DNA from: Bacteroidales bacterium
GTDB lineage: Bacteria; Bacteroidota; Bacteroidia; Bacteroidales; VadinHA17
NCBI GenBank assembly: GCA_021157415.1
Contig: JAGGWN010000004.1
Coordinates: 1-56,081, forward strand
DNA: 56,081 nt
Direction of reading: 5' to 3'
Under the pieces are notes generated by a model. The model was not told the origin of the DNA. It did no database searches and saw nothing but the letters and a program-made list of their open reading frames with translations. The stretch's first letter is position 1, and the number at the start of each line of letters is the position of its first letter. This document shows positions 6,986-47,966 of the stretch, one piece after another. Made by a program: the position numbers and the translations under genes.

Positions 6986-7067
6986 AAATCTCGGATGTCT
7001 TTTTAAAATATTGTATATTGTATGAGATTATAACAAATTTTAGCAGGTTTTATATAAAGATATTTTA

Positions 7068-7075
7068 TACTTTTG
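7068..7075 (+). promoter_or_regulatory. Candidate Bacteroidota -7 box for the doxX-like gene
   Basis: TACTTTTG matches the Bacteroidota -7 consensus TAnnTTTG exactly and ends 16 bp before the ATG at 7092, within a very AT-rich stretch. A clear TTG at the -33 position is not visible, so this is a candidate only. Confidence 0.45.
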
Positions 7076-7091
7076 GCAAAATTTTAGTTTT

Positions 7092-7589: not shown

Positions 7590-7597
7590 ATAATAAT

Positions 7598-9217: not shown

Positions 9218-9247
9218 AAAATCCCGGCACTGCCGGGATTTTTTTTT
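9216..9247. terminator. Bidirectional intrinsic terminator between convergent genes
   Basis: The 8-bp stem AATCCCGG/CCGGGATT (9220-9227 and 9233-9240) with a 5-nt loop is flanked by an A run on the left and a T run (9239-9247) on the right. It can therefore end both the plus-strand oxidoreductase gene and the minus-strand pckA. It overlaps the TAA of the oxidoreductase gene. Confidence 0.85.
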
Positions 9248-9261
9248 ATCGTCTATTGGAT

Positions 9262-29666: not shown

Positions 29667-31172
29667 ATGAAATATTTTTTTCATTTTAATTCTTTCTTCC
29701 GAATCCTGAGTCTGGCAGGTGTCCTGCTCTTTCCGGGGACCGTGCTTTTTTCGCAAGAAGCTTTGACTCTGGACAAGGCATTATCCATCGCTGCCCTGAA
29801 CAGCCCGGATATACAGCGATCGTTATTGAATCTGACGCGTTACAGGGAGTCGCTCAATGCTCACAAGGCTTCCCTGAAATCTCAGTTCAGCCTGGATGTA
29901 AACCCTGTCTCTTTCAGTCAGCAGCGGGAATTCGACAATCGCTTCTCGAAGTGGTTTACCAACCGTAATTTTAATTCGTCGGGTACTTTCAGGGTTGTTC
30001 AGCCTATTCTTTGGACCGATGGGACCGTATCGCTGGTGAACCGTTTCGGATGGCAGCAAAACCTTTCGGATTTTACCGGGACGATGGAGAAAAATACGGC
30101 ATTTACCAACCGTCTTTATCTTAGTCTGAACCAACCGTTGTTTACGTACAATAAACTTAAACTGGCACAGAAAGAGTTGGAGCTGGACTATGAAAATGCC
30201 AATATCAGCTATGCTTTGCAACGGCTTAACCTGGAAAAAAATGTGACCCAGTTTTTTTATAATGTGTACCTCTACCAAATGAGTCTCAATATTGCCAGGG
30301 ATGAACTGAACAACACCATGCGCAGCTATGAGATCATTAAAAATAAAGTGGATGCCGGCCTGACAGCCAAAGAAGAGTTGTACCAGGCCGAACTGAATCT
30401 GGCCACTTCGAGGTCCTCTGTAAAAAATCAGGAAGTGACCCTGGCAAATGCCAAGGATGAGTTCAAGCGTTTCCTCGGGATGAATCTTTATGACTCTATT
30501 GTGGTTCTGGCTGATATTGCCATACCGGATGTGAAAGTGGACCTGCAGAAAGCTGTTGAATATGGATTGAATTCCAGACTGGAGATCAGACAAAGACAGA
30601 TAGATATAGAGACCTCACAGTTTCAGATGATACGCACCAAAGCACTGAACGAATTTAAAGGGGAGTTGCAAATGTCAGTGGGGATCATGGGTGATGACCC
30701 GGCTTTTGCCAGGGTTTATTCCAAACCCACCAATAACCCGCAGGTGTCGCTGGGTTTTCGGATACCCCTGTACGACTGGGGAGAGAAAAAAGCCCGTATC
30801 AAGGCCCAGGAGGCAGTCATTGCCACACAGCAGATCAATTACGATGAAGAGAAAAAGCAAATCATCATAGATGTCCGGAAAGTGTACAGGAACCTGCAAA
30901 ATCAGCTGAACCAGATTGTTATTGCCAGACAGAATGTTCAAAATGCCGAACTGACTTATGAGATCAACCTGGAAAGATATAAAAACGGTGATCTGACCAG
31001 TATGGATCTTAATCTTTACCAAAACCAGCTCTCGGAAAAGAAAATGTCATATGCCCGGGCACTGATCAATTATAAGCTGGAACTGTTGAATCTTAAGATC
31101 CAGACCCTCTATGACTTCGAACATCAAAAGCCTATCGTTCCCATGGAAATGTATAATAGTCAGAACAAATAA
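29667..31172 (+). CDS. TolC-family outer membrane efflux protein
   Basis: The 501-residue protein has a signal peptide (to about 28, after LFSQ) and two copies of the outer-membrane-efflux repeat, rich in long amphipathic helices. Family-typical stretches include EALTLDKALSIAALNSPDIQ near the start and NLERYKNGDLTSMDLNLYQ near the end. It should trimerise into a channel through the outer membrane and the periplasm. It sits between an ABC permease (12-bp gap) and the adaptor of an RND pump (16-bp gap), so it may serve both the ABC and the RND parts of the operon. Confidence 0.93.
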   Translation: MKYFFHFNSFFRILSLAGVLLFPGTVLFSQEALTLDKALSIAALNSPDIQRSLLNLTRYRESLNAHKASLKSQFSLDVNPVSFSQQREFDNRFSKWFTNRNFNSSGTFRVVQPILWTDGTVSLVNRFGWQQNLSDFTGTMEKNTAFTNRLYLSLNQPLFTYNKLKLAQKELELDYENANISYALQRLNLEKNVTQFFYNVYLYQMSLNIARDELNNTMRSYEIIKNKVDAGLTAKEELYQAELNLATSRSSVKNQEVTLANAKDEFKRFLGMNLYDSIVVLADIAIPDVKVDLQKAVEYGLNSRLEIRQRQIDIETSQFQMIRTKALNEFKGELQMSVGIMGDDPAFARVYSKPTNNPQVSLGFRIPLYDWGEKKARIKAQEAVIATQQINYDEEKKQIIIDVRKVYRNLQNQLNQIVIARQNVQNAELTYEINLERYKNGDLTSMDLNLYQNQLSEKKMSYARALINYKLELLNLKIQTLYDFEHQKPIVPMEMYNSQNK

Positions 31173-31188
31173 GTAAAAAAATACAACT

Positions 31189-32265
31189 ATGAAACGTCGT
31201 CAGAACCTGAAAAATGTTTTCCTGCCAGCCCTGGTGTCAGCGTCCGTAATGTTGTTTACCATGTGTCGTAATAAAAATGTAAACATGAATACCGACCTGG
31301 CCATCCCGGTATCCCTTATGGATGTCAAAAAAGGATCCATCGAAAAAGTGCTTCATGCCACCGGTACGGTAAATGCTACCCGCCAGGCCTTGATAAAATC
31401 GGAAGTGGCGGGGAAGTATATCCTGCAGAAGAATCCTGCTACGGGAAAACCTTATAAGCTTGGAGACAGGGTACGTACCGGAGATATGGTAGTTATTTTG
31501 GCAGATAAAGAGTATGAGAACAACCTGAACATCCCTTCGAAGAAGTTGAATATGGATATCTCCCGGCAGGAATATGAGAAACAGAAATCTTTGTATGAAA
31601 AAGGGGGCGTGACCTTAAGGGAGCTGCGCAACTCGGAGATCTCATGGATCAATGCCAAAAGCGACTATGAGAACAGCTTGCTCCGGTTGGAGAAAATGAA
31701 AGCCAGGGCTCCTTTCAACGGAATCATTACCGGGCTCCCTTTTTATACACCCGGTGTCCGGATCAATGCAGGACAAGATCTATTTACAGTCATGCAATAT
31801 GATAATTTGTATATGTACATCAACCTGCCCGAACGTTATTTGCCGGAAGTTAAACCGGGACAGACGGTGCGTATAACGAACTATGTGTTGCCGGATGATA
31901 CACTGAAAGGAAAGGTGACGGAGAAATCCCCGGCTCTGAGTACGGAGACACGTACGTTTCTGGTCAAAGTTCTGATCAATAACAGGAAACAGATATTGCA
32001 CCCCGGCATGTTTGTCAAGGCTGATATTATTTTACGGAAAAAAGACGATGTGATTGTTATACCCAAGGAATATATCCTGAGCGGTGGCGGAAATAAAAGA
32101 GTCTACATTGTGAAGCAGGGGGTCGCCCATGAACGGAAACTGGTGACCGGCATGGAAAGTGACAAGGAGGTGGAAGTGCTGAAAGGACTAAAGGAGAATG
32201 ACAAACTGGTGGTCAAAGGGTTTGAAACGCTCCGGGACCGGTCGAAAGTGAAAGTGATACAGTAA
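31189..32265 (+). CDS. Efflux periplasmic adaptor (membrane fusion) lipoprotein
   Basis: This 358-residue adaptor is a probable lipoprotein, with C26 after a hydrophobic stretch (MLFTMC). The family modules are in order: a first lipoyl half from about residue 50, a short alpha-hairpin (about 100-165), the second lipoyl half with RAPFNGIITGLPFYTPGVRI, a beta-barrel domain (PGQTVRITN) and a membrane-proximal domain at the end. It would bridge the RND permease encoded 31 bp downstream to the TolC protein encoded 16 bp upstream. The hairpin is short compared with AcrA-type adaptors. Confidence 0.93.
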   Translation: MKRRQNLKNVFLPALVSASVMLFTMCRNKNVNMNTDLAIPVSLMDVKKGSIEKVLHATGTVNATRQALIKSEVAGKYILQKNPATGKPYKLGDRVRTGDMVVILADKEYENNLNIPSKKLNMDISRQEYEKQKSLYEKGGVTLRELRNSEISWINAKSDYENSLLRLEKMKARAPFNGIITGLPFYTPGVRINAGQDLFTVMQYDNLYMYINLPERYLPEVKPGQTVRITNYVLPDDTLKGKVTEKSPALSTETRTFLVKVLINNRKQILHPGMFVKADIILRKKDDVIVIPKEYILSGGGNKRVYIVKQGVAHERKLVTGMESDKEVEVLKGLKENDKLVVKGFETLRDRSKVKVIQ

Positions 32266-32296: not shown

Positions 32297-35200
32297 ATGA
32301 AAAAACTTGTACAGTTTGCGGTAAATTACCCGGTGACCATCCTGATGATCACCCTGGCGGTGGTTTTGTTGGGATGGATATCCTGGGATAAGCTGGGCGT
32401 GGATCTTTTTCCCGACCTGAACAACCCGCGCCTATATATTGAGATCAAGGCAGGGGAACGGCCTCCGGAAGAAATGGAGAAAATGTTTGTAAAGGGTATG
32501 GAAGCCTTATCTATCCGGCAGAAAGATGTTCTGGATGTTTCTTCGGTGTGCCGTACCGGCTCTGCCCGTATCACCATCGAATATGCCTGGAACAAGGATA
32601 TGGATGAAGCTTATCTGGATATTCAGAAAGCCATGAACTCATTTGCCCAAAACCGGGAGATTGATGAACTGAATATTTCCCGTCATGATCCCAATAGCGC
32701 TCCGGTGATGTTGCTGGCTATGACCAATGACCGTATTACCGATATGAACGAACTTCGCAAGACAGCCTGGAACTATGTGCGTAATGAGTTGGTGCGCCGG
32801 GAGGGCGTCGCCGACGTGGAGCTTTCGGGTCAGGAGGAAGCAGAGGTGCTGATCACTACCGATCGTTACAGACTGGAGGCTTTCGGACTTTCCCTGAACG
32901 ATCTGTCGAACAGCATTCGGAACTATAACAGGAATGTGACTGGAGGAACGGTGGTTGAAAACAACAGGCAGTATATTGTAAAAGGAGTGAGCCTCCTGAA
33001 AAATCTGAAAGATTTTGATGAGATCATCGTAGGGTATAAACCGGTGACAGCAACAACGAGCACGACGGCAAATGCCCCGGTCCAAAAAGTCCCTGTTCTG
33101 TTGCGGGAAGTGGCTACCATACAAATAAGAAATAAAAAACCGGCTAATATCGTGCGGTTTAACGGACAAAGATGCATTGGCCTGTCGGTGTTCAAAGAAA
33201 CCAAATACAATACGGTGAAAGCTGTGGACCAGATTAACCAGGCCATAGACAAAATGGAAAAAGCCCTGCCCGGGTATCATTTTTACAAGATCTCCGATCA
33301 GGGTTCTTACATCAGCAACGCCATTGATGAGGTGAAGCATACGGCGCTCATCGGCATTGTACTGGCGATCTTTGTTCTTTTTCTTTTCCTGCGCAGAATA
33401 GGCACTACCCTGGTCATCAGTGTGGCAATCCCCGTTTCCATCATTGCCACATTCAACCTGATGTATTTCGACAAACTGACGATCAACATCATGACATTGG
33501 GCGGGTTGGCCCTTGGTGCGGGTATGCTGGTGGACAATGCCATTGTGGTGATGGAGAATATTTTCCGGAACCACCAGGCCGGGATGCCGGTAAAAGATGC
33601 TGCTGTAGTGGGAACAGCGCAGGTGGGCGGGGCCATTACCGCTTCCACCCTGACCACTATTGTGGTCTTTTTGCCCATTGTTTACCTGCACGGACCTTCC
33701 GGCGAATTGTTCAAAGACGAGGCCTGGACCGTGGCTTTTTCATTGCTGTCATCCCTTTTTGTTGCCATTTTTCTGATCCCCATGTTGTACTATTATGTGT
33801 TCAGAAACAAGCCCGCCACCCCTGTACATTTTCGGGCTACGTATGAGGCCTACGGGCGTTTCCTGAAAAAAGCACTGACCAGGAAATGGCAGATATTGTT
33901 ACTCTCGGCGGTGCTGGTAACAGGTGCCTTTTTGCTGGTACCTGTGATAGGTACGGAATTTATGCCTCCTGCCGGCACCCGGGAATTCAACCTGGAAGTT
34001 AAACTTCCGGAAGGAACTACGCTTGAACGAACCTCTGCAACCCTGAAAAATTTGGAGAACCTGATACGTGAGATGTTGGGGGATAACATTGAAACGTTAT
34101 ACAGCCATACGGGGAAGCAGACAGGTACTGGAGGAGATATCCAGGCTGTTTTCAAGAGTGAGAACAATGGCATGATCAAAGTGATTCTGAAGAAGGACGC
34201 TCCGCTCAGTCCGGACAAAGTAACAAAAGCACTGCAGACAGTGAGTGCGGATATACCGGATGTGACCGTTCGTTTCACACAGGAGGAAAGCGTGCTGAAG
34301 AGTGTGTTGGGTTTGGAGGAGGCTCCTGTGGTCATTGAAGTGCAGGGAGAAGACAATGAGGTGCTGGAGAGTATTGCCGGCGAAGTGATGAAAAAGGTCC
34401 GGGGGATAGATGGTTTGTATAATCTCCGTTCGTCCTTGGAGGCAGGTGCCCCGGAGGTGCTTGTGGTGATAGACAAGTTGCGGGCCGGGATGTTTAATCT
34501 GAATGTTACTTCAATAACTCAGCAGATTAGGAACCAGCTTGAAGGTACCAATGCCGGCGAGATAGACCGCAAAGGCGAAATGAGTGATATCTTCCTGAAG
34601 CTTCCTGAGAAAGACCTCGCATCCCTGCAGGATATGGTGATCCGTACCGGAGAACAGGAGGTGCGCCTGAATGAAATTGCCAGTATAGAGAAGACTACTT
34701 CGCCGAAAGAGTTGTTCCGGCGCAACCAGAACAGGGTGATACGTATTTTTGCCCGCCTGAATGAAGGGAAAGCGCTGGACAAAGTGGCGGAGAATATCAG
34801 AACACACATGGCACAAATAGAATTGCCGGCCAATTACCGGATCACTTTGTCGGGGGAAGAAGAAAAACGCCAGGATTCTATGAAAAACCTGGAATTTGCC
34901 TTATTACTGTCCATCGTACTGGTGTACATGGTGCTGGCCTCACAGTTTGAGTCGCTGATCCATCCCTTTACCATCCTGCTGACAATCCCTCTGGCCGTGA
35001 CAGGTTCTATTCTGCTTTTCTGGATCCTGGGCAGGCCGCTAAACATGATGGCGATCATAGGGATCATCCTGCTGGTAGGGATCGCGGTGAACGACTCCAT
35101 CATCCTGGTGGACCGCATCAACCAATTGAGGCGTGAGGAGGGCATGTCACGCTCCGGGGCGGTCGTGGAGGCTGGAAAACAAAGGATACGTCCTATTCTG

Positions 35201-35422
35201 ATGACCAGTCTGACTACGGTGCTGGCCTTGTTACCACTGACCATAGGTTTCGGGGAGAATGTGGCCCTGCGCTCTTCCATGGCCCTGGCCGTAATCGGTG
35301 GCCTGGTGACTTCCACGCTGCTCACCCTTGTGGTGATTCCCTGTATCTATGATCTGCTCGACAGACTCCGGGAGCTTTTTACGGGACGGAAAGAAGAAAA
35401 TTCTCAAATAACCGGGGCTTAG
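32297..35422 (+). CDS. RND-family efflux permease
   Basis: The 1041-residue inner-membrane protein has the full RND layout of twelve membrane helices and two large periplasmic loops. It starts near residue 7 with FAVNYPVTILMITLAVVLL and shows GMLVDNAIVVMENIFR in helix 4 and LVGIAVNDSIILVDRINQLR in helix 10. Helix 4 carries Asp-Asn where AcrB has two adjacent aspartates, a common variant in Bacteroidota. It should use the proton gradient to export a substrate through the adaptor and TolC protein encoded upstream. A second RND domain is encoded 9 bp downstream as part of an RND-ABC fusion, so the pump may be a mixed trimer like MdtBC, as inference. Confidence 0.94.
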   Translation: MKKLVQFAVNYPVTILMITLAVVLLGWISWDKLGVDLFPDLNNPRLYIEIKAGERPPEEMEKMFVKGMEALSIRQKDVLDVSSVCRTGSARITIEYAWNKDMDEAYLDIQKAMNSFAQNREIDELNISRHDPNSAPVMLLAMTNDRITDMNELRKTAWNYVRNELVRREGVADVELSGQEEAEVLITTDRYRLEAFGLSLNDLSNSIRNYNRNVTGGTVVENNRQYIVKGVSLLKNLKDFDEIIVGYKPVTATTSTTANAPVQKVPVLLREVATIQIRNKKPANIVRFNGQRCIGLSVFKETKYNTVKAVDQINQAIDKMEKALPGYHFYKISDQGSYISNAIDEVKHTALIGIVLAIFVLFLFLRRIGTTLVISVAIPVSIIATFNLMYFDKLTINIMTLGGLALGAGMLVDNAIVVMENIFRNHQAGMPVKDAAVVGTAQVGGAITASTLTTIVVFLPIVYLHGPSGELFKDEAWTVAFSLLSSLFVAIFLIPMLYYYVFRNKPATPVHFRATYEAYGRFLKKALTRKWQILLLSAVLVTGAFLLVPVIGTEFMPPAGTREFNLEVKLPEGTTLERTSATLKNLENLIREMLGDNIETLYSHTGKQTGTGGDIQAVFKSENNGMIKVILKKDAPLSPDKVTKALQTVSADIPDVTVRFTQEESVLKSVLGLEEAPVVIEVQGEDNEVLESIAGEVMKKVRGIDGLYNLRSSLEAGAPEVLVVIDKLRAGMFNLNVTSITQQIRNQLEGTNAGEIDRKGEMSDIFLKLPEKDLASLQDMVIRTGEQEVRLNEIASIEKTTSPKELFRRNQNRVIRIFARLNEGKALDKVAENIRTHMAQIELPANYRITLSGEEEKRQDSMKNLEFALLLSIVLVYMVLASQFESLIHPFTILLTIPLAVTGSILLFWILGRPLNMMAIIGIILLVGIAVNDSIILVDRINQLRREEGMSRSGAVVEAGKQRIRPILMTSLTTVLALLPLTIGFGENVALRSSMALAVIGGLVTSTLLTLVVIPCIYDLLDRLRELFTGRKEENSQITGA

Positions 35423-35431
35423 TAATAAGAT

Positions 35432-38400
35432 ATGAAAATGATTATCAACAGGAAAGTACTTATCAGTATGCTTTTTGCAGGACTGACCCTGTTGGGTTAT
35501 ATCTCCTACAAACAGCTTCCTGTTGAATTGTATCCCAATCCCGAACTTCCTTATCTGATCGTTCAGGTGTATGCCGGGCAGGAGGTGGATCCTAAATATA
35601 TGGAAAATGCGGCGGTTATCCCCTTGGAAGGAGCTGTAAATATGGTGGGTGGAGTAGATGCTATTTCTTCCTACATACGGAGCCGGAACGCCCAGATCGT
35701 GGTTTCATTCAAGAAAAACGAGAATATGAACCTCGCATATCTGAAGCTCCAGGAGAAAATCAACAGCATGAAGGAGAACCTGCCTGAGCAGTTCAGGGTG
35801 CAGGTGGCCCGTATAAATCTGGAAAAGATGAACAGCCGCTTTATGGAGCTGCAGGTTACGGGAGAGGGCGATGTGGACCGTGTAAGAAATCTGGTGGACA
35901 GAAGAATCAAACCGGAGCTGGAAAACATAGACGGGATTGCCGGTGTGCAGGTGTTCGGCGGTCGCCGCAAGTCGATGGAGATTAGACTGGATATGAATGC
36001 CTGCAAAGCCTATGGGGTATCCCCTTCCCACATTCTGACCCTCCTGAGACAGAATACGGCCAACAGGGCTTATGCCGGGAATCTGTATGAAGACGGAAAA
36101 CGTTATTTTGTGCAGGTGGAAGCTGATTACAGCAATATTCATGATATGGAAAACCTGGTGGTGGCCCGGGGCCCTGTCCTGCTGAAAGACGTGGCGGAGG
36201 TTTATTTTGGCTTTATGGAAGAAAAGAGCTACAGCCGTGTGAACGGGGAAAATGCGGTATCCTTGTTTTTACTGAATGATGCCCAGTCCAATCTGATAGA
36301 CCTTTCACAGAAAACGCAGGAAACGATCCGGCAGCTCAATCGTAAATACGGCCACCTGGGGCTGAACATTGTCATTCGTTCCAATGTGGCCGAGGTGATG
36401 GAGAAAAATATTGACCAGATCATGCACCTGGCTCTGATAGGAGGAATACTGGCCGTTTTCGTATTGTGGATATTCCTGAAAGATTTGAGATTGGTCTCTT
36501 TTGTCGCGCTGGCAATCCCCATATCGGTGTTTACGGCATTCAACCTGTTTTATGGCTTTAACATCACTCTTAACAGCTTTACATTGATCGGTATGGCTCT
36601 GGCTATTGGTATGTTGCTGGACAATTCGGTGGTGGTTTTGGAAAATATTTACAGGCTTTCATCCTACGGGGCCCCTCCCGACCGGGCTGTCCTGCAAGGT
36701 ACCCGTGAGGTATGGCGATCCGTTTTTGCTGCCACCCTCACCACCGTAATGGTGTTTGTACCTTTCCTCTTTTCAGCAAACTGGATGATTCGGCTGCTGG
36801 GTGGGGAAATCAGCATATCTATCATTTCCACTCTCCTCGTTTCCCTGCTGGTAGCCCTTATGTTTATTCCGATGACTACCCACTCTCTGCTGAAAAGACG
36901 ACGGTCAAAACCTGTGTTTTATGAAAAGGTGACGACCAACAAACGAATCATACAGTTTTATGTTCTCCTGTTAAAAAGCGGCCTCCGGCGTCCGGCAGCT
37001 ACGATGATCTGGGCTTTGGCCCTCTTTTTTATCAGTGTCTTTATCATGCTTGCGGTGCATGTGCCTGCCTTAAAAAATACGGAAAAAGACGCTTTTGCCA
37101 TTCATGTGAATACTTATGGAGGGGCTACGTTGCAGACTACTGACAATATTGTCCGGCAGATCGAAGAAAAACTGGATGACCTGACTGAAAAAGAAGATGT
37201 GATCAGCAATGTGCGGGAACAGGATGCAATAGTCACCGTTAAGTTGAAAAAGAACTATGAAAAAATAGCCGGGCACACCATTGAAGTGATCATGGATGAT
37301 ATCAGAAGCCGGATGAGAAATATAAAAGGGGCAAATCTCAATGTGACCACAACAAATACCGGCGGTAATGCAGGAGGTATGAACAACAAAGTGCTGGGGA
37401 ATTTTCAGCGTCTGTTGGGTATGGGTTCACAGAATGAGCAGATATATATTAAAGGACGGGACTTTACCGTGATGCGCCGGGTAGCATCCGACCTGCGTTA
37501 CTTCATGGGGAATCTGGAAAACATTCGATGGGTTAATGTGTCGAATCTTCCGAACAGAAGCCCGGAGGTGGACCTGATTTTTAATCCCTACCTGATGAAT
37601 GAGTTCGGGATCACTCTTGCCTCGGTGTCTTCGGAACTGGCTTCCTTCTCAAATGAATTTTCTTCAGGATTTACATTCCGGCAGGGTACAGATGAGTATG
37701 AGATTGTTTTGAAGGAAAAGGAGGTCTCTGCAGAGGAGAAGAAAAGTAAAAATATGGACGACCTGATACGTATGCCGGTCAGAGGAAAAGCAGGTACGGT
37801 ATATCCGTTGGGATCTTTTGCTCAGGTGGTTTATGCACGGGGGGTCTCCGGGATTACCAGGGAGAACCAGGGGAAACGGATCACGCTAAATTATGCTTTC
37901 AACCGGGAGGTGTATCGTTCGAAGGGGTTGCTGGAGACATCCCGCAAGGAGGTAAACGACATCCTTACTGCCTATAACATGCCGGCCGGCGTGGCTGTAG
38001 AGATGGTGAATCAGGAAAATCAGTTCAAAGACTTTTACTTCCTGATCGGGGCCGCTATCCTCCTGATCTTTATGATTCTGGCTTCCGTATTTGAGTCCCT
38101 CTCGGTGCCTTTTGTTTTGCTTTTCTCTATTCCGCTGGCTGCCACCGGTTCGTTTCTGGCCTTGCTGATCACCCATAACAGCCTGTTCAATGCCAACACC
38201 CTCACCGGTTTTATCATCCTTATAGGCATCGTGGTAAACAACGGAATTTTATTGATAGACTACACGAATATTTTGCGAAAAAGAGGATATCGCAAAACGC
38301 GTGCCCTGATGACCGCGGGCATGTCCCGGGTGAGGCCTATCCTCATAACGGCCATTACCACCATTGTGGCCATGTTCCCGCTGGCAATGGGGAAAGCCGA

Positions 38401-40144
38401 GTATGTAAGTGCCATTGGCGCTCCTTTTGCCATCACCGTGATCGGGGGACTCTCTTTCAGCACACTACTTACCTTGATTATCGTGCCGGTATTCTATTCC
38501 GGCCTGGAGAATGCCCTTCTTTGGTTCCGTGGTCTGGATCTGAAGGTAAAGATTCTGCAACTGGGGTTGATCATAGCAGGTGCCTGGCTGGTCTTTGTGA
38601 ACGTGGACGCTTTCCTCTGGAGAATGCTGCTGTTTATATTGCTGGTCCTTGTGGTACCGGGAACCACCTGGTTTATGCTCTCCAGCCTGCGCCGGGCCGG
38701 CATGCATCTGATCCCTGAACATGAGCCGGTCAGGATCCGACTGCAGAACCTGGTGAAGATATACGACCGGGATTCCAGGTTTGTCAGAGAGTGGAAAGGC
38801 GGGAAAAAAATCAGAGAAAGGGCAGGCCTGGAGAAGCATTACCGTAGAAAAGAAGATTTTTACGACCTGATATGGGAGATCCCGGTATATCTGTTCATGG
38901 TTTATTTTACGTTTTTCTATCTGCAATCCGGGTTTTGGGCATTGCTCCTGGCGGTGGTGCTTTATCTTTATACCCTGGTGTTGTACCGTCCGCTGGGGAA
39001 GATATTGCAGAATAAATACGAAGAGACTGAAAGAAAATTTTACAGGAAAACCGATCATACCCTGTACAAGTTTATATTCTGGTTCCTGCCGCTTGTAATA
39101 CTGGCTGTTTTCGCCGGACAATGGAGAAATCCGGGTGTTGTAGTTGCGACAGGCGCACTATGGTATTTATTATTGGGTGTATATGCTGTTTCAGCAAAGC
39201 TATACCGTGAAAAAATCAATGTGGACCGCATCATGGGTCGTTTTGGAGGCATGAGAAGAGGATTCTATCGTCTGGTCAGGCAGATCCCTCTGCTGGGTAA
39301 GAGACGTACACCCTTTAAGGCTCTGCGTGGGATTACCCTGGATATTGGTACCGGCATGTTCGGATTGCTCGGACCCAACGGTGCCGGGAAAACTACGCTG
39401 ATGCGTATTGTATGTGGGATCTATGACCAAAGCTATGGAAAGGTGTGGATCAATGGCATCGACACCCTCAGGAAACGGGAAGAACTACAGGGATATATCG
39501 GATATCTGCCCCAGGAATTCGGTATGTATGAGAACCTGACCGCCTGGGAGTATCTGGATTATCAGGCTATTCTCAAAGGATTGAAAGACCAGGATGTGCG
39601 CATGGCACGGTTGAAGTATGTACTGGCGTCGGTTCACATGCTGGATCACAAGGATGAAAAGATAGGTTCTTTCTCAGGCGGAATGAAACAACGTATCGGC
39701 ATTGCTCAGATACTGCTACATCTGCCCAGGATCCTGGTGGTGGATGAACCTACTGCCGGCCTCGACCCGCGCGAACGAATACGATTCCGGAACCTGCTGG
39801 TCGAATTAAGCCGCGAACGGGTCGTGCTCTTTTCCACACACATCATCGAAGATATTTCCAGCTCCTGTAACCAGGTGGCTGTCATTGACAGAGGAGAACT
39901 TAAGTATTACGGAGTGCCGCATGAGATGAACAAACTGGCCGGGGGACTGGTATGGCAGGCCGATGTGACGGAAGCAGTGTTCAGGAAACTGGCCGGAAAA
40001 TATCTGATCGTGCATCATATGCAGGTTGAAGAAAAGATACGGGTACGCCTGATTTCAAAGGAAAAACCTGCGGCAGAAGCCATTAATGTGACCCCCCTGC
40101 TTGAAGATGCTTATCTGTGCCTGCTTAAGAACATAAGGAAATGA
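35432..40144 (+). CDS. RND permease fused to an ABC ATPase (1570-aa natural fusion)
   Basis: Residues 1 to about 1027 form a complete RND permease: it opens INRKVLISMLFAGLTLLGYI, has GMLLDNSVVVLENIYR in helix 4, and GIVVNNGILLIDYTNILRKR in helix 10. Two more membrane helices follow (about 1030-1085), then IRLQNLVKIYDRDSRF, which looks like the first strand and A-loop of an ABC domain (Y1111). About 200 residues with roughly four membrane helices come next. The ABC domain then resumes with FKALRGITLDIGTGMFGLLG, Walker A GPNGAGKTT (1314-1322), signature SFSGGMKQR (near 1412) and Walker B ILVVDEP (near 1433). The frame is open throughout with no stop or frameshift, and the overlapping permease gene (ATGA) argues for one intended product. 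It could couple ATP hydrolysis to RND export, or tether two machines. The function is not known. Confidence 0.93.
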   Translation: MKMIINRKVLISMLFAGLTLLGYISYKQLPVELYPNPELPYLIVQVYAGQEVDPKYMENAAVIPLEGAVNMVGGVDAISSYIRSRNAQIVVSFKKNENMNLAYLKLQEKINSMKENLPEQFRVQVARINLEKMNSRFMELQVTGEGDVDRVRNLVDRRIKPELENIDGIAGVQVFGGRRKSMEIRLDMNACKAYGVSPSHILTLLRQNTANRAYAGNLYEDGKRYFVQVEADYSNIHDMENLVVARGPVLLKDVAEVYFGFMEEKSYSRVNGENAVSLFLLNDAQSNLIDLSQKTQETIRQLNRKYGHLGLNIVIRSNVAEVMEKNIDQIMHLALIGGILAVFVLWIFLKDLRLVSFVALAIPISVFTAFNLFYGFNITLNSFTLIGMALAIGMLLDNSVVVLENIYRLSSYGAPPDRAVLQGTREVWRSVFAATLTTVMVFVPFLFSANWMIRLLGGEISISIISTLLVSLLVALMFIPMTTHSLLKRRRSKPVFYEKVTTNKRIIQFYVLLLKSGLRRPAATMIWALALFFISVFIMLAVHVPALKNTEKDAFAIHVNTYGGATLQTTDNIVRQIEEKLDDLTEKEDVISNVREQDAIVTVKLKKNYEKIAGHTIEVIMDDIRSRMRNIKGANLNVTTTNTGGNAGGMNNKVLGNFQRLLGMGSQNEQIYIKGRDFTVMRRVASDLRYFMGNLENIRWVNVSNLPNRSPEVDLIFNPYLMNEFGITLASVSSELASFSNEFSSGFTFRQGTDEYEIVLKEKEVSAEEKKSKNMDDLIRMPVRGKAGTVYPLGSFAQVVYARGVSGITRENQGKRITLNYAFNREVYRSKGLLETSRKEVNDILTAYNMPAGVAVEMVNQENQFKDFYFLIGAAILLIFMILASVFESLSVPFVLLFSIPLAATGSFLALLITHNSLFNANTLTGFIILIGIVVNNGILLIDYTNILRKRGYRKTRALMTAGMSRVRPILITAITTIVAMFPLAMGKAEYVSAIGAPFAITVIGGLSFSTLLTLIIVPVFYSGLENALLWFRGLDLKVKILQLGLIIAGAWLVFVNVDAFLWRMLLFILLVLVVPGTTWFMLSSLRRAGMHLIPEHEPVRIRLQNLVKIYDRDSRFVREWKGGKKIRERAGLEKHYRRKEDFYDLIWEIPVYLFMVYFTFFYLQSGFWALLLAVVLYLYTLVLYRPLGKILQNKYEETERKFYRKTDHTLYKFIFWFLPLVILAVFAGQWRNPGVVVATGALWYLLLGVYAVSAKLYREKINVDRIMGRFGGMRRGFYRLVRQIPLLGKRRTPFKALRGITLDIGTGMFGLLGPNGAGKTTLMRIVCGIYDQSYGKVWINGIDTLRKREELQGYIGYLPQEFGMYENLTAWEYLDYQAILKGLKDQDVRMARLKYVLASVHMLDHKDEKIGSFSGGMKQRIGIAQILLHLPRILVVDEPTAGLDPRERIRFRNLLVELSRERVVLFSTHIIEDISSSCNQVAVIDRGELKYYGVPHEMNKLAGGLVWQADVTEAVFRKLAGKYLIVHHMQVEEKIRVRLISKEKPAAEAINVTPLLEDAYLCLLKNIRK

Positions 40145-40902
40145 ACGAAATCATGCAAATATCCGGAAAAAACAAAGGAAAAACCGGTGGTAAGAAACTG
40201 AAAAACCTGCTCGACCTGACTGGCAGAATGGTGAAATATAACATGAAAATCATCTTTGCCAATCGCTTTTTGTGGTTTTTACTGGTAGCCTTTCTGGTAT
40301 TTATATTAATATCGATTATCGCTGTACTCGACAATGAGGGACTGGATATCTCATTTATTTATGGGTCCCTGCTTCTACCAGGGGTCCTGCTTCTTTTCTA
40401 TCCGACGGTCTTCGGGATACAGAATGATGATGACGCGCGTGTGTTGGAAATACTTTTCGGGATACCTGACTACCGTTACAAAGTGTGGTTGGTGAGGCTG
40501 TTGATAACTTTTCTTTTCCTGTATATCATCCTGGTGTGTTTCACCTGGATGGGCGCTGTTCTGGTATTGCCTGTGCCGGTTTTTGAAATGGCCGGACAAC
40601 TCATGTTCCCGTTATTGTTCATAGGCATGCTGGGATTTATGCTTTCAACCATGATACGCAGTGGCACTGCTACAGCGGTGGTGCTGGTACTTTTGGGGGT
40701 AGGCCTCCTGATCCTCCAGGGTAGTATCGACCGCAGCATGTGGAATGTCTTTCACAACCCGTATAATGTGCCTCGCAGGATGAATGAAATGCTATGGGCC
40801 CGGGTGACCCTTAAAAACAGACTGTTCCTTGTCAGCGGCTCTATCCTCTTTCTTCTGTATGGCTTGTTGAACCTGCAGAAGAGGGAGAAGTTTATTAAAT
40901 AA
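40141..40902 (+). CDS. ABC-2-type permease, partner of the RND-ABC fusion
   Basis: The 253-residue membrane protein has about six hydrophobic segments in residues 40-245 and a cytosolic, basic N-terminus. The layout is that of small ABC-2 export permeases with short loops. Its ATG overlaps the stop of the fusion gene by 4 bp, which indicates translational coupling, so the ABC domain of the fusion is the likely ATPase partner. It is the last gene of the export operon. Inverted repeats that could end transcription follow within about 100 bp. The substrate cannot be inferred. Confidence 0.88.
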   Translation: MNEIMQISGKNKGKTGGKKLKNLLDLTGRMVKYNMKIIFANRFLWFLLVAFLVFILISIIAVLDNEGLDISFIYGSLLLPGVLLLFYPTVFGIQNDDDARVLEILFGIPDYRYKVWLVRLLITFLFLYIILVCFTWMGAVLVLPVPVFEMAGQLMFPLLFIGMLGFMLSTMIRSGTATAVVLVLLGVGLLILQGSIDRSMWNVFHNPYNVPRRMNEMLWARVTLKNRLFLVSGSILFLLYGLLNLQKREKFIK

Positions 40903-41110: not shown

Positions 41111-42907
41111 CTATTTTTCTTTCACCAGCATGGCCTCGATACCCTTGACGGCGCGGTAGCCGTCAGCGATAGCGCTGATGGCGTCAGCAGTGCGGTTGGC
41201 AGCATCTCCGCCGGCAAAGATCTTCGGATCGGTGGTTTGCTGGAACTCATTTACCACGAAGCGCCCCCGTTCGATCCTGATCTTCTCGGCAAATTCTTCT
41301 TCCAGGAAGCTGTAGTCGCCTTGCTGGCCGATGGCACCCAGCACAGCCGTCGCTTCTATGGTTTTGTTGCTGCCTTCGATGGCCACCGGTTTGGGACGTC
41401 TGCCCCGTTCGTCCGGAACCATTTCAGCCAGCAGATATTCGACAGCTTTCACATGACCTTTGTCATCACCGTGGAACTGGATCGGGATTGCCTGTGGCAC
41501 GATGTGTACCCCTTCCTCCTCGGCCCCTTCGATTTCTTCCCAGTCGGCAGGCATATCCTGCACGCGTCGGCGATAGAGGATGGTAACATCGGCACCCAGA
41601 CGGCGGGAGACACGGGCAGCATCAATGGCAACGTTCCCTCCGCCGATCACGATCACCTTATCACCAATATCCACTTGCTTGCCGTTGTTGATTTCATACA
41701 GGAAGTTGACCGCCTGGATGGAGCCCTGTAGGTCTTCTCCTTCCACGCCCAGCGTCCAGGGTTTCGGAAATCCGACGCCTACAAAGACGGCATCATACTT
41801 TTCGTAAATCTCTTTGAAGGAAATATCTTTTCCGACCCTGGTATTAAAGTGGATCTTAACACCTATTTTCTGAATGTATTCGATCTGTTTGTCCAGACTT
41901 TCTTCGGGGAATCTGTATTTGGGGATCCCGTACATGGTCATACCGCCGGCTTTGGCGTGGGCCTCATAGATGGTACAGTCGAAGCCACGCAGCGCCAGGT
42001 AGTAGGCTGCGGTCAGTCCGGATGGTCCGGCGCCGACGATACCTACCTTGAAACCATTGGGTGCATTGATTTCCGGATTAACGATTTCCTTGATCAGGTC
42101 GGCGTTATTCACCGTTTCGGTGGCATAACGTTTCAGCCAGCGGATAGCGATCGGTTCTCCGCGGTGGGCAATGGCACACACCTCTTCACAACGACGGGTA
42201 CAGACTTTCCCGCACATCTCAGGCAGCGGGTTGTTGTCATAGATAATACGAACGGCATCGGCATCGTTGGCCCGGGCAATGGCATTGATATATTCGGGGA
42301 TGTGCATATGTTCGGGACATGCTTCGGTACAGAGCCCGCAACTGATACAGCGGCTGGCTTCGGCACGTGCCTGTTCTTCGTTGTAGCCCAGCACCACTTC
42401 GGCAAAGGATTTGACCCTTTCCATTCCTTCCAGTTCGGGCATGGGGATACGGGCGAAGTCGTTGAGAGAGGTAGCTTCGGTGCTTACGAAAGATTTTCTT
42501 TCTTTGCCTTCCGGGTTATCCACCCCCGGCATCCACAGGAATGAATCTGCATCATCACTAACATACACATAGTCTTTGGTAAGACTAAGGCTGCCGGTAG
42601 GGCATACCTCCACGCACAAACCACACCAGCAGCAACGGCCGTGGTCGATCCTGGGCCGCAGGCCTGAATCGCCTTTTTTTCCTTCAATGCCTTCCACCGG
42701 CACCATATCAATAGCCTGGTTCTGGCAGATGGTGGAACAGTTACCGCATCCTATACATTCTTCCAGGTCATTGTAATGAAATCCCCGGTACCGGTCTGCT
42801 GCCTCTCTCGGGACAAAAGGCGTTTCCTTAAGTGTATGAGGCTGCTTGCCGAACTGTTTCAGTGCGGTCAGCGGTTTCAGTGTACCTTTCAGATCAAAAA
42901 AACTCAT
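41111..42907 (-). CDS. NuoI/MbxN-like ferredoxin subunit fused to GltD/NfnL-type NAD(P) oxidoreductase
   Basis: The 598-residue protein is the last gene of the Mbx-type operon. Residues 45-110 form a two-cluster ferredoxin domain of NuoI type, with C51/54/57/61 and C92/95/98/102. Residues ~170-250 are the cluster-binding domain typical of GltD and NfnL, with C187/190/193/197 and C232/236/240/244. An FAD-binding Rossmann motif follows (VGAGPSGLTAAYYLALRG, from 291), then an NAD(P) motif (GGGNVAIDAARVSRRLGAD, from 422) with YRRR after it, compatible with NADP(H). The end, FAGGDAANRTADAISAIADG, is the usual FAD-closing motif. In total four [4Fe-4S] clusters, one FAD and one NAD(P) site are predicted. 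It should feed or drain electrons of the membrane complex from NAD(P)H. Annotation as glutamate synthase would be wrong, since no large subunit is nearby. Confidence 0.9.
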   Translation of the reverse strand: MSFFDLKGTLKPLTALKQFGKQPHTLKETPFVPREAADRYRGFHYNDLEECIGCGNCSTICQNQAIDMVPVEGIEGKKGDSGLRPRIDHGRCCWCGLCVEVCPTGSLSLTKDYVYVSDDADSFLWMPGVDNPEGKERKSFVSTEATSLNDFARIPMPELEGMERVKSFAEVVLGYNEEQARAEASRCISCGLCTEACPEHMHIPEYINAIARANDADAVRIIYDNNPLPEMCGKVCTRRCEEVCAIAHRGEPIAIRWLKRYATETVNNADLIKEIVNPEINAPNGFKVGIVGAGPSGLTAAYYLALRGFDCTIYEAHAKAGGMTMYGIPKYRFPEESLDKQIEYIQKIGVKIHFNTRVGKDISFKEIYEKYDAVFVGVGFPKPWTLGVEGEDLQGSIQAVNFLYEINNGKQVDIGDKVIVIGGGNVAIDAARVSRRLGADVTILYRRRVQDMPADWEEIEGAEEEGVHIVPQAIPIQFHGDDKGHVKAVEYLLAEMVPDERGRRPKPVAIEGSNKTIEATAVLGAIGQQGDYSFLEEEFAEKIRIERGRFVVNEFQQTTDPKIFAGGDAANRTADAISAIADGYRAVKGIEAMLVKEK

Positions 42908-42937
42908 AATCGTTCTATTCCTTTCTGACGTTAACTA

Positions 42938-44041
42938 TTATCTTTCAATTTCCGGTGGGCAGGTGCCCAGACTGTTCATGATGGCTGATATATCCGCAAG
43001 ATTTTCGCCTACCAGCAGATCTTCCAGCAGGGTGATGGCATGTACATAAGCTGCGCCTCTGAAATGTGCTCTCCGGGGATGTGTTCCTCCGTCGCTGGAA
43101 ACATACATCCCCACTTCTCCCCGCACGGCTTCGGTACGGGCATATGCATCGCCTTTGGGAAGGGCCCATTTCTGAGGGTTGGGAATCTTGTTGTAAAAAT
43201 CACCTCCGGGTATCTTGTCGATCACCTGGCGGACAATGCGTATCGATTGTCTTATCTCCTGACGGCGTACCTGCGCACGGGACCATATGTCACCTCCTTC
43301 GTGGGTGGGAACGACAAAATCCAGTTTGTCATATACCTCGTAAGGGTCGTCAATACGCACATCGTGTTTGATCCCGCAACCACGCAGCGGCGGACCTACC
43401 ACTCCCCATTCAATGGCTTTTGCCTTGTCAATGATCCCGATACCTTTTGTTCTTTTTTTGAAAATCGAGTTTTCGAACATCAGGTCATCATAATCGTCCA
43501 GGCGTTTTTCAAGATAATCCATGGTCTTGAGTACTTTTTCCTCAAAACCTTCCGGCATATCGCGGCGCACACCGCCTGGCCAGATATACATATGATAAAC
43601 ACGGCCGCCGGTAAGTTCTTCGAACAGGTCGAGGATATAGTTGCGGTCCCCAACGCTCCATTGTCCGACGGTATAAAGTCCGAGTGAACCGGCTTGTCCA
43701 CCGTACCATAACATGTAAGAGGCTATGCGGGCCAGCTCGAGTACCATGACGCGGATATATTTGGCCCTTTCGGGGACTTCACGTCCTTCCAGTTCTTCGA
43801 CAGCACGGGCATAGCTTTCTTCTACGGGATCAGGCTCGGGAACACAGAAACGACACAGCAGCGTGAAGCTTTGCAGCCAGTTTCTCTGTTCTATCAGCTT
43901 CTCAAAAGCCCGGTGCAGATACCCCACTTCGGTAGTGGCTTTGACAATGGTATCTCCTTCCACTTTTACCCGCACCATCATATTTCCTGTGATCCCGGGG
44001 TGCTGCGGGCCAATGTATAGTGTTGTTGCTTTTTCTCTCAT
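42938..44041 (-). CDS. NuoD/MbxL-like large subunit of Mbx-type complex
   Basis: The 367-residue protein belongs to the complex I 49-kDa / group 4 hydrogenase large-subunit family: it begins YIGPQHPGITGNMMVRVKV and has EVGYLHRAFEKL. Of the four cysteines that bind [NiFe] in hydrogenases, the first pair is kept (C63-x2-C66 in LLCRFC), while the C-terminal pair is reduced to one (C361 in SLGTCPPEIER). A hydrogen-forming [NiFe] site is therefore not expected. Three cysteines could instead hold an iron-sulfur cluster, as reported for the archaeal sulfane-reducing MBS complex. Another cysteine, C222, lies in PPLRGCG, a loop near the quinone-site equivalent. Its start immediately abuts the stop of the NuoC-like gene, and the fused NuoI/NfnL gene follows after 30 bp. 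Confidence 0.9.
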   Translation of the reverse strand: MREKATTLYIGPQHPGITGNMMVRVKVEGDTIVKATTEVGYLHRAFEKLIEQRNWLQSFTLLCRFCVPEPDPVEESYARAVEELEGREVPERAKYIRVMVLELARIASYMLWYGGQAGSLGLYTVGQWSVGDRNYILDLFEELTGGRVYHMYIWPGGVRRDMPEGFEEKVLKTMDYLEKRLDDYDDLMFENSIFKKRTKGIGIIDKAKAIEWGVVGPPLRGCGIKHDVRIDDPYEVYDKLDFVVPTHEGGDIWSRAQVRRQEIRQSIRIVRQVIDKIPGGDFYNKIPNPQKWALPKGDAYARTEAVRGEVGMYVSSDGGTHPRRAHFRGAAYVHAITLLEDLLVGENLADISAIMNSLGTCPPEIER

Positions 44042-44608
44042 TTATCGTTTGTATTTTTTGGCAAAATCCGGTAATTCTTCTCCCGTACGTTCAATGATGG
44101 TTTCTCTGACGTCACGGGCATCCTCACGTCCGGGACGTTCCCAGAATTTCTCCCGGGCATAAGCTTCCGTGTCGAAATCACGCCGCATAGGGGGAGGTCC
44201 TTCCCAGTCTTCCAGCAAAAACTCTTCGGGAGCTTCCAGACCTGTGAATTCAATGCCGTACATCTCCTTCATCTCACGCTCGTACGTATTGGCCTGGCGC
44301 CAGATCATGTCCACATTGTCCATCACAGGGTTTTCACGTTCTACGCGTGTATGAACGAATATCTTGATCTTGTCGGTATAAGACCACACAATATATACGA
44401 TCTCAAATTCTTTTTCTTCCAGCCAGTCCACACAGGCGATGTGAGACAAGTGGTTATATCCCATCTCATCTTTCAGGAAAAAAAGGATGGCGGGGATTTC
44501 TTCTTTACCGATAAAGAAATCTACCCGGTTTCCGTCATGTTGCTGTGCAGTAACTTCCTTGAAGTGAGTTGTGATCTTTTCTATGACCGTTTTTTTTATC
44601 TCTTTCAT
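44042..44608 (-). CDS. NuoC/MbxK-like subunit of Mbx-type complex
   Basis: The 188-residue protein matches the 30-kDa complex I subunit family: HLSHIACVDW near residue 75, then FEIVYIVWSY, and ANTYEREMKEMYGIEFTGL in the family signature region, followed by a short C-terminal tail. It is a cytoplasmic-side subunit that packs on the NuoD- and NuoB-like subunits and binds no cofactor of its own. The gene lies 11 bp after the NuoB-like gene and directly abuts the NuoD-like gene, so expression in fixed ratio is likely. In true complex I the NuoC and NuoD parts may be fused; here they are separate, as in mbh/mbx loci. Confidence 0.9.
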   Translation of the reverse strand: MKEIKKTVIEKITTHFKEVTAQQHDGNRVDFFIGKEEIPAILFFLKDEMGYNHLSHIACVDWLEEKEFEIVYIVWSYTDKIKIFVHTRVERENPVMDNVDMIWRQANTYEREMKEMYGIEFTGLEAPEEFLLEDWEGPPPMRRDFDTEAYAREKFWERPGREDARDVRETIIERTGEELPDFAKKYKR

Positions 44609-44619
44609 ATTTTTTTCTC

Positions 44620-45165
44620 TTACCAGTTATATTCAGGCATGCGCCAGTTGGGTATGACGTTTTTCTGGTTGGCACGATACCACTCCAGGTTTTCTTTGTA
44701 TTTTTTTGCCCCGTCGGCTTTGCCGGCCTGGATCAGTTTCTGCAGTTTGGCAAAACCGGAGAGCACTGCTTCGGGCCGTGGCATACAGCCGTTGATATAG
44801 ATATCCACCGGCATATAACGGTCCAGTGCCTTGATCGTGTTGTAGGAATCCCAGTACATCCCTCCGTTGATGGTACAGGAGCCGAAACCGATGACATATT
44901 TGGGATCCTGCATTTGTTCATATACGCGGATGACACGTTTCAGGGTCTTGGTGGTGAGGTAGCCTGTAATCAGCAGCACATCGGCCTGACGAGGGGTAGC
45001 TGCTCCACGGACACCGAGCCGCTCGGCATCATACCGGGAGGTCATGGTGGGAGGGAGCTCAATGGCTCCGCAGCCGGTCCCGTATGCCAGTACCCATAAA
45101 GAATGCTGACGGGCAAAGTTCTGAATAATATCTACGATTTTTTGAGAGTTTTTATCGTTTATCAT
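44620..45165 (-). CDS. NuoB/MbxJ-like small subunit with only three cysteines
   Basis: The 181-residue protein is the homologue of complex I NuoB and hydrogenase small subunits. It should carry the [4Fe-4S] cluster nearest the active site. It has exactly three cysteines: C32 in GTGCGAIE, C97 in GFGSCTINGG and C127 in INGCMPRPE. Complex I has adjacent CC, and MBH-type hydrogenases have CxxC, at the first site; here glycine replaces the second residue. The cluster therefore has at most three cysteine ligands from this chain, leaving an open or foreign ligand. The gene lies between the NuoH-like (12-bp gap) and NuoC-like (11-bp gap) genes in mbx order (M, J, K). Confidence 0.92.
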   Translation of the reverse strand: MINDKNSQKIVDIIQNFARQHSLWVLAYGTGCGAIELPPTMTSRYDAERLGVRGAATPRQADVLLITGYLTTKTLKRVIRVYEQMQDPKYVIGFGSCTINGGMYWDSYNTIKALDRYMPVDIYINGCMPRPEAVLSGFAKLQKLIQAGKADGAKKYKENLEWYRANQKNVIPNWRMPEYNW

Positions 45166-45177
45166 CGCTTTTATTTT

Positions 45178-46089
45178 TTAAAAAAGTGCGGCCTGCAGTA
45201 TGGCCAATAATCCGAAAAATGAAGGCCATCCCCAGAACCAGCGGACTGATTGTTCTGTGCGATATCTCGGGCTGGTTATGCCGTAAAGCATGGGGATAAG
45301 ATATAGGGTAAATGTCTTGACAACCAATATAATAAGGTTATCTGCTCCTCCCATGAAAATATCTACATAGAGGGTGAGTTTGGCAAATGTAAAAACCGAT
45401 CCGGCAGACATCATCACAAAGAGGTATTTACCGCCGTTTTCCGACATCGGGCCGGAGGCCAGTTCCTGCGGAGCCCCGACAATATCAAAAGGAGCATAAC
45501 GGAACATCCCCAGCATGGCCATGACGGCAGCCAGAAAAGCAAACGGCGAGGAAAACATCAGCCAGCGGCCTGACTCAACCTGTACATTCATCAGATCAAC
45601 GATCGAAGTGGTTTTATACTGGATCATCAGGGCCACCAGAGCCATTACCCAGGGGATCTCAAAGCCGGCCATTTGGCTCAGTCCACGCGTAACCCCGATG
45701 GCGGAGTTGGGGTTTCCTGTCTGACCGGCCCCCAGTGCCATCCCCAGCGGCCCGAAAACCATAATGTACAACAGAAAAATCAGATCGCCCTGGAAATTCA
45801 GGTTGGGGAAAAACTTATTTCCATTCAGGATGGGTATGACCAATAAGGATACAACGGCCGTAACCATAATAAAAGCAGGTCCCATATGATGCATTACCCC
45901 ATGATGGATAGAGGTTTTCTTTGAATAAAGTTTAATGACATCGATAAAATTCTGGTACCAGGGCGGGCCGTACCGGTTCTGGACACGGGCCGTAATCTTC
46001 CGGTTCAGCCCCATGTAGGTAATCCCAACCGAGAACGCTACGACAAATGAAACAATCGCTCCCCATGTATAATACAAAATTTCTTTCAT
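45178..46089 (-). CDS. NuoH/MbxM-like membrane subunit
   Basis: The 303-residue integral membrane protein has about eight hydrophobic segments and the NuoH-family features of conserved acidic residues in loops (APFDIVGAPQELASG) and the NRYGPPWYQNFIDVIKLYSKK stretch near residue 40. It joins the redox arm (NuoB/D-like) to the antiporter-like ion-pumping arm. It lies where mbxM stands in the archaeal locus, directly before the NuoB-like gene and after the second antiporter subunit, with gaps of 12 and 14 bp. Confidence 0.92.
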   Translation of the reverse strand: MKEILYYTWGAIVSFVVAFSVGITYMGLNRKITARVQNRYGPPWYQNFIDVIKLYSKKTSIHHGVMHHMGPAFIMVTAVVSLLVIPILNGNKFFPNLNFQGDLIFLLYIMVFGPLGMALGAGQTGNPNSAIGVTRGLSQMAGFEIPWVMALVALMIQYKTTSIVDLMNVQVESGRWLMFSSPFAFLAAVMAMLGMFRYAPFDIVGAPQELASGPMSENGGKYLFVMMSAGSVFTFAKLTLYVDIFMGGADNLIILVVKTFTLYLIPMLYGITSPRYRTEQSVRWFWGWPSFFGLLAILQAALF

Positions 46090-46103
46090 TTTTCTATTTG
46101 TTT

Positions 46104-47954: not shown

Positions 47955-47966
47955 AATATCTTCAGC

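Follow-up and report, generated by a model that had tools for sequence, protein, structure and literature searches.

We analyzed a stretch of 56,081 nucleotides (hereafter, the window) from a Bacteroidales bacterium, corresponding to positions 1 to 56,081 of contig JAGGWN010000004.1 in GenBank assembly GCA_021157415.1, and focused on a plus-strand gene at positions 35432-40144 that encodes a resistance-nodulation-division (RND) permease joined to an ATP-binding cassette (ABC) ATPase. RND pumps ordinarily run on protons and ABC exporters on ATP, and the two families usually occur apart. The gene is one open frame from the ATG at 35432 to the stop at 40144 and encodes 1570 amino acids (aa), as the first-pass annotation had reported, and both of the domains proposed there for a single chain were recovered by Pfam. 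The RND permease part (aa 2-1023, 35435-38500) matches ACR_tran with an E-value of 6e-169 over profile positions 3-1018 of 1021, which corresponds to a full-length AcrB/AcrD/AcrF domain, while the ABC_tran match (E 2e-26) spans aa 1300-1442. The intervening aa 1024-1293 match no Pfam family at E-values up to 0.1. According to hydropathy and structure prediction, the RND part is followed by two extra membrane helices (about aa 1044-1083, 38561-38680), a beta strand carrying the A-loop motif KIY and predicted to open the ABC ATPase fold (aa 1102-1111, 38735-38764), a four-helix membrane insert predicted to lie inside the ATPase domain (aa 1112-1294, 38765-39313), and the remainder of that domain with its Walker A, Q, signature, Walker B and H motifs (aa 1295-1566, 39314-40129).

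The fusion gene is the sixth of seven genes in a plus-strand operon. The operon begins with NBD1, a stand-alone ABC ATPase (25386-26336; ABC_tran E 1.6e-31), whose TTG start was assigned mechanically and whose true start may lie further in. It is followed by PERM1, an ABC-2-like permease with an N-terminal membrane domain, an M1-peptidase fold and a C-terminal Golvesin_C domain (26349-29654), a TolC-family outer membrane channel (29667-31172; OEP E 1e-40), and a periplasmic adaptor, or membrane fusion protein (31189-32265; RND_mfp score of 195.9 bits against a cut-off of 94.9). Next come RND-A, a plain RND permease of 1041 aa (32297-35422; ACR_tran E 2e-219), the fusion itself, and PERM2, a second membrane protein of 253 aa (40141-40902), for which the ABC-2-like label is a reading of sequence and context. 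The intergenic gaps are 12, 12, 16, 31 and 9 bp, and the fusion overlaps PERM2 by 4 bp. The overlap and the adaptor, TolC and ABC permease neighbors noted earlier are thus as described, within what proves to be a conserved seven-gene operon.

To collect relatives of the fusion we scanned with the whole protein, using one genome per species; 178 relatives were confirmed and the best 80 were kept, a selection that is biased toward full-length fusions. In all 80 kept loci the junction lies in the same frame as the RND half. The fusions are 1494-1603 aa long (median 1576, for the 75 frames with both stops within the locus). The two shortest frames, L060 and L098, end early close to the C end; both were omitted from the structure-prediction alignment and the fusion tree, and L060 also from the count of insert lengths. 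The sources include the complete chromosome of Draconibacterium orientale (L059) and isolate assemblies of Tannerella forsythia, Marinifilum, Labilibaculum and Sunxiuqinia.

Searches with the junction alone (query aa 1024-1283) are free of the bias toward full-length fusions, and their counts include the genome of the window itself. The junction was matched in 60 of the 117 genomes of the family to which the window belongs, in 40 of 295 genomes drawn from its order (at E 3e-22 or better), and in 6 of 392 genomes drawn from its phylum (completeness of 90% or more), the last count leaving out one genome (G165) with a match at E 8e-4 in an 87-aa frame with stops. The order count excludes 20 genomes with weak matches (E about 1e-4 to 1e-3), which mostly fall in frames of about 330-460 aa. 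Nine of these weak matches, from eight of the 20 genomes plus a second match in G883, were translated as candidates for a membrane-inserted ATPase free of an RND part. All nine read as Opp/Dpp-type permeases without ATPase motifs, so this candidate was rejected, and the other 12 genomes were excluded by analogy.

The junction also occurs in 38 of the 82 genomes from the phylum of G515, the genome that carries locus L070. We take this phylum to be different from that of the window because it comprises just 82 genomes, against 392 drawn from a larger group. Nine of the 38 matches are weak and were kept, as they lie in frames of 1206-1610 aa; the three that were translated are true fusions of 1579-1589 aa with 34% identity. 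Identity among the fusions ranges from 71% down to 34%, the lowest value belonging to the three distant fusions inspected. Loci L223, L224 and L225 belong to a remote group of RND-ABC fusions from the other phylum, at 34% identity. A FastTree phylogeny of 79 fusions unites the rows carrying the labels KSB1, Calditrichaeota, Krumholzibacteria, Chlorobiota and plain 'bacterium' in a single seven-member clade (support 99); all seven are metagenome bins, and their taxon labels are given as deposited. The fusion is therefore a real, natural and conserved protein family, which is found across Bacteroidota and in at least one other phylum.

The window is a draft contig from an assembly of 128 contigs, and a lost stop codon or a false join could in principle produce such a frame. 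The first-pass annotation had taken the gene to be real rather than an assembly join, and had named a lost stop or frameshift near the junction, or homologues always encoded as two genes, as the outcomes that would speak against it. We observed neither. Relatives from isolates and from a complete chromosome carry the same one-frame junction, which rules out a lost stop or a false join, and the conserved RND-ABC junction for which a homologue search had been suggested lies within a single frame in every kept locus. Together with the distant fusions in another phylum, and with the fact that among the breaks found in relatives only one falls at the junction, these data leave an assembly or sequencing artefact with a negligible probability.

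Shortened frames were inspected in 29 genomes: 22 end at contig ends, five are broken in the RND half, one is interrupted by scaffold gaps, and one is split at the junction. Of the 60 family genomes with the junction, 41 carry a frame open for 1550 aa or more, and in 19 the frame is shorter. Of the latter, 14 lie at contig ends, four are broken in the RND half (G030, G031, G035 and G041), and one (G009) has the fusion in pieces next to runs of N in the scaffold. The ten short frames inspected outside the family include eight at contig ends, one with a break in the RND half and N stretches (G579), and one split at the junction (G584); those outside the family that were left uninspected include G545, G563, G575, G582, G617, G862, G872, G882 and G683. 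The split in G584, a metagenome bin from the phylum of G515 (L236, 1095-6172), falls after the extra helices and before the first ATPase strand. Its first frame (1137 codons) encodes the RND part together with both extra helices, and its second frame (485 codons) starts just ahead of the first ATPase strand and encodes the insert and the whole ATPase. The two frames are separated by roughly 210 bp that read like a short intergenic repeat. The site of the split coincides with the domain boundary given by the fold prediction. The arrangement could be natural, with two genes, or could reflect a dead gene or an error in the bin.

The ATPase half retains its core residues throughout the family. In the fusion alignment, 80 or 81 of the 81 rows share the core residues of Walker A, Q-loop, signature, Walker B and H-switch; the one departing row is L060, which has an X and a frame break at the site. 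Judged by these sequence motifs, the fused ATPase qualifies as an ABC ATPase, with Walker A, Q-loop, an LSGG-type signature, the Walker B glutamate and the H-switch. Some 200 residues ahead of Walker A there is a further conserved stretch, K-[IV]-Y (aa 1109-1111), in which K1109 and Y1111 are invariant (81/81) and which resembles the opening strand and A-loop of an ABC ATPase.

This reading agrees with an AlphaFold2 model of aa 520-1570 built from 79 rows. Its mean predicted local distance difference test (pLDDT) score is 76.9, with blocks from about aa 1090 mostly at 80-92. In the model, a strand at aa 1102-1111 is followed by helices, including aa 1149-1163, 1167-1199, 1202-1230 and 1234-1259, and a strand at aa 1295-1305 then opens the rest of the ATPase. 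We compared the model with 999 chains using VIA-align and considered the best 50 matches for each model compared, all of which were filled by a single domain. The best 50 listed for the fusion were all ABC ATPases or transporters, and their alignments begin at model residue 575-582, at the first strand. The cleanest match was 1vpl (Z 27.4, root-mean-square deviation (rmsd) 1.7, 234 of 238 residues), in which model residues 581-1047 align with chain residues 2-239. The order of strands in the model and the start of the structural alignments place the membrane helices inside the ATPase domain. We therefore predict that the first strand is part of the ATPase and that four helices are inserted after the A-loop tyrosine, so that the nucleotide-binding domain would be non-contiguous.

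The insert is 165-191 aa long in 80 aligned rows, with four predicted membrane helices, and its insertion site is the same at 34% identity. The two further helices at about aa 1044-1083 link the RND part to the first ATPase strand. Extra helices between the RND and ABC parts had been described before and are present, but they do not form a simple linker, since two precede the predicted ATPase fold and four lie within it. The N end of RND proteins is on the inside of the membrane, and with 12, two and then four helices both pieces of the ATPase would therefore be cytoplasmic. The four-helix insert is by itself structurally unusual, given that the ABC ATPase is otherwise canonical.

The RND half departs from the best-known members of its superfamily. 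The AcrB proton relay consists of two aspartates in transmembrane helix 4 (TM4) and a lysine in TM10. We set the corresponding positions by alignments to MdtB (9lyq), the best sequence match of the RND half in the PDB, and to a second solved RND protein. In TM4, D397 aligns with the first aspartate and N398 with the second, while N936 in TM10 aligns with the lysine. D397 is invariant in the fusions (81/81), as are N936, N937 and R968 (81/81 each), and N398 is found in 79 of 81 rows. Of the AcrB relay residues, the first TM4 aspartate alone is thus kept. The earlier claim that key residues are retained in both halves is correct for the ABC half but not for the RND half, which departs at N398 and N936. 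This relay set defines the AcrB type and not the whole RND superfamily. RND-A has D-N in TM4 and N-D in TM10, its relatives likewise having N followed mostly by D. Among other RND frames of the same genome, five of seven show D-N in TM4, and the TM10 lysine is missing from all six that are readable there. Because D-N without the lysine is usual among the RND proteins of this genome, the pattern alone argues neither for nor against proton use. The loss of two relay residues was considered as a mark of an ATP-driven RND protein; this idea is weakened by the similarity of most other RND frames in the genome.

The seven-gene arrangement is conserved too. Where the contig leaves room, NBD1 was found in 50 of 52 loci, PERM1 in 60 of 60, TolC in 61 of 61, the adaptor in 64 of 65, RND-A in 73 of 74, and PERM2 in 75 of 75 (68 by tblastn and the remaining seven by profile). 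In these counts, RND-like frames of 700-1300 aa were relabelled as RND-A and ATPase-length frames best matching the fusion as NBD1; the NBD1 missing in L078 and L107 falls beyond the 10 kb flank that was covered. All seven genes are visible in 48 loci. Across the 117 family genomes, the junction and the periplasmic part of PERM1 occur together in 59, the junction only in one, PERM1 only in four, and neither in 53. In the four genomes with PERM1 only, the RND genes are at or near contig ends, clearly so in G005 and G071 and presumably in G070 and G090. All 57 genomes with PERM2 fall within the 60 with the junction. Beyond the operon, no gene family downstream of PERM2 is common to more than six loci, and none before NBD1 is common to more than three of 18 (17 genomes and the window, with NBD1 recovered in 17 of the 18). 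The neighbors thus give no clue to the substrate, as nothing is conserved upstream or downstream. Upstream of the operon in the window, a gene at 18904-23019 (+) encodes a 1371-aa C25 (gingipain-type) peptidase with a propeptide and a Por secretion tail, and this gene is not among the upstream genes common to relatives.

The partner subunits would suit an ABC exporter. NBD1 is 42% identical to the fused nucleotide-binding domain (hereafter, NBD2). In a tree of 13 fused domains, 12 NBD1 proteins and 15 other ATPases of the genome, NBD1 and NBD2 each form one clade, and the two group together apart from the 15 others with support of 90/78, as a duplicated heterodimer would. PERM1 matches ABC2_membrane_2 with an E-value of 5e-4, below the gathering score, and Golvesin_C was also matched by Pfam. 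Its AlphaFold2 model (pLDDT 86.1, predicted template modelling score (pTM) 0.81) has as best structural matches, among the 50 listed, M1 metallopeptidases with Z of about 21 (6iff: Z 21.0, 382 aligned residues, rmsd 4.8), and the layout is a membrane part, the M1-peptidase fold and then Golvesin_C. The HExxH zinc motif is absent from PERM1 in all 59 aligned rows. With this modelled fold and no zinc motif, PERM1 is a conserved pseudo-peptidase joined to a permease. PERM2 matches no Pfam family at E 1e-3. On the basis of context, hydropathy and the sub-threshold match, we infer that PERM1 and PERM2 are the two membrane halves of an ABC-2 exporter. These, with the two clearly recognizable nucleotide-binding domains, would add up to a complete ABC exporter.

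We propose, with a probability of roughly 0.55, that the seven genes encode a two-engine exporter spanning the envelope: a two-subunit RND tripartite pump with a heterodimeric ABC-2 exporter tethered to it. The two halves of the fusion would then work together, as in the hybrid export machine suggested by the first-pass annotation. NBD2 would pair with NBD1 to drive the ABC-2-type exporter formed by PERM1 and PERM2, and the RND half would join RND-A in a mixed trimer that docks to the adaptor and TolC. Mixed RND trimers are known from MdtB and MdtC. The covalent link and the four-helix membrane anchor of the ATPase would keep the ABC exporter beside the RND pump, so that the fusion would be one chain belonging to both. 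ATP would move the substrate across or within the inner membrane; the periplasmic domains of PERM1 (the dead M1-peptidase fold and Golvesin_C) may then receive it and pass it to the proton-driven conduit of RND, adaptor and TolC for extrusion. Within this scheme we infer the subunit pairing, stoichiometry, hand-off, proton use and substrate; physical hand-off is most likely the mechanism, being the most economical, and a peptide or lipopeptide, which would suit an M1-like receptor, is a guess. A stronger form of the proposal, in which one polypeptide with a membrane-threaded ATPase is at once a subunit of the RND pump and of the ABC exporter, and ATP hydrolysis and proton flow are mechanically coupled for export across both membranes in one step, is tentative and stands somewhat below an even chance.

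Several observations weigh against the proposed machine. The pTM of the fusion model is 0.56, which makes the domain placement uncertain. The ABC-2 match of PERM1 is sub-threshold and PERM2 matches no family model, the support for grouping NBD1 with NBD2 is moderate, and TM4 N398 and TM10 N936 depart from the AcrB relay. One locus, L069 (fusion at 4812-9554), has PERM2 downstream and no recognizable RND-A or adaptor in the 4.8 kb upstream. In the distant locus L225 the NBD1-like gene is divergent, and PERM1, TolC, the adaptor and RND-A are not evident among nearby frames. G584 is the sole inspected relative that departs from the one-chain form, and should both of its pieces be functional, the covalent link would be dispensable in that case.

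The same components could be arranged differently. ATP might power or gate the RND pump itself, with the ABC cycle moving RND helices or opening the adaptor-TolC channel, much as MacB is thought to drive MacA-TolC mechanically; PERM1 and PERM2 would then be coupling scaffolds, and the ABC dimer would have no separate translocation path. The conserved ATPase motifs, the covalent fusion of a membrane-anchored ATPase near the end of the RND part, and an RND half lacking two of the three AcrB relay residues would all suit such a device. However, the TM4 aspartate is invariant (81/81), and the altered relay is so common in this genome (TM4 D-N in five of seven RND frames, no TM10 lysine in six) that it gives no sign of lost proton coupling. 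Moreover, the second nucleotide-binding domain and two permease-like proteins accompany the fusion in loci with room for them, and we consider ATP gating of the pump rather unlikely. A still looser arrangement would treat the fusion as only a tether, which sets the ratio and location of two exporters that work independently; these would have an operon and a stress response in common but handle different substrates. Strictly, operon and fusion show just that the parts are made and kept together, and the halves in G584 are on two frames split at a domain boundary. G584 is nevertheless one metagenome bin with a possibly dead gene, whereas the whole operon has one adaptor and one TolC gene, the junction, PERM1 and PERM2 co-occur almost perfectly, and the retention of the four-helix insertion at 34% identity suggests a tighter mechanical role. 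A mere tether thus appears quite improbable, and the two-engine exporter remains our preferred interpretation.

Among the closest known systems, MdtABC-TolC resembles the operon in having two adjacent RND genes and an adaptor. Unlike the fusion operon, MdtB and MdtC lack an ABC domain and are not accompanied by ABC exporter genes, and MdtB has D-D in TM4 and lysines in TM10, compared with D-N and N-N in the fusion. ABC permease/M1 aminopeptidase fusion proteins exist, and in PERM1, too, an M1-peptidase fold comes after the membrane domain, but PERM1 lacks HExxH (59/59 rows) and has Golvesin_C added. A secondary carrier associating with an ATPase has a precedent in ArsA-ArsB, although these are separate proteins of families unrelated to those of the fusion. 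ABC-2-type exporters with DrrA-, GldA- or NosF-like ATPases and ABCA transporters are also close: of the listed NCBIfam ABC models, drrA and GldA give the fused ATPase its highest scores, and its best sequence matches among the PDB chains listed are ABCA-type domains, with NosF also present; no listed model or chain is named as an RND fusion. In MacAB-TolC, an ABC transporter is reported to act together with a periplasmic adaptor and TolC (PMC5673888). It differs from the fusion operon, which has an RND permease joined to the nucleotide-binding domain. Among the matches listed from the open-licence full-text literature (titles and abstract starts), we found no description of a one-chain RND-ABC fusion, of the seven-gene machine or of the membrane insert in the ATPase, and none of the three appears in excerpts of a major review of tripartite systems (PMC8277102). 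Each half belongs to a well-known family. Automated annotation is expected to name such genes after one half only.

Hand-off from single-component inner-membrane exporters to RND-TolC systems is usually studied with separate, promiscuous proteins. Here an ABC exporter and an RND pump appear to have been wired together by evolution, which offers a defined seven-gene system for testing hand-off and the coupling of ATP and protons. The fusion may let cells pass a substrate through both membranes in one machine, and the split in G584 is a natural test of the need for the covalent link.

The window contains other features outside the operon. On the minus strand, positions 15406-18753 encode a Y_Y_Y/two-component-propeller sensor with a terminal SpoIIE phosphatase domain. 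A gene at 23798-24559 (+) encodes a Mut7-C RNase domain with a ubiquitin-like Ub-Mut7C domain ahead of it. A complex-I-like cluster at 41111-49460 (-) includes 49-kDa, 30-kDa and NADHdh subunits, two Proton_antipo_M subunits and an iron-sulfur (FeS)/flavin oxidoreductase, and it possibly encodes a membrane-bound hydrogenase or a related complex.

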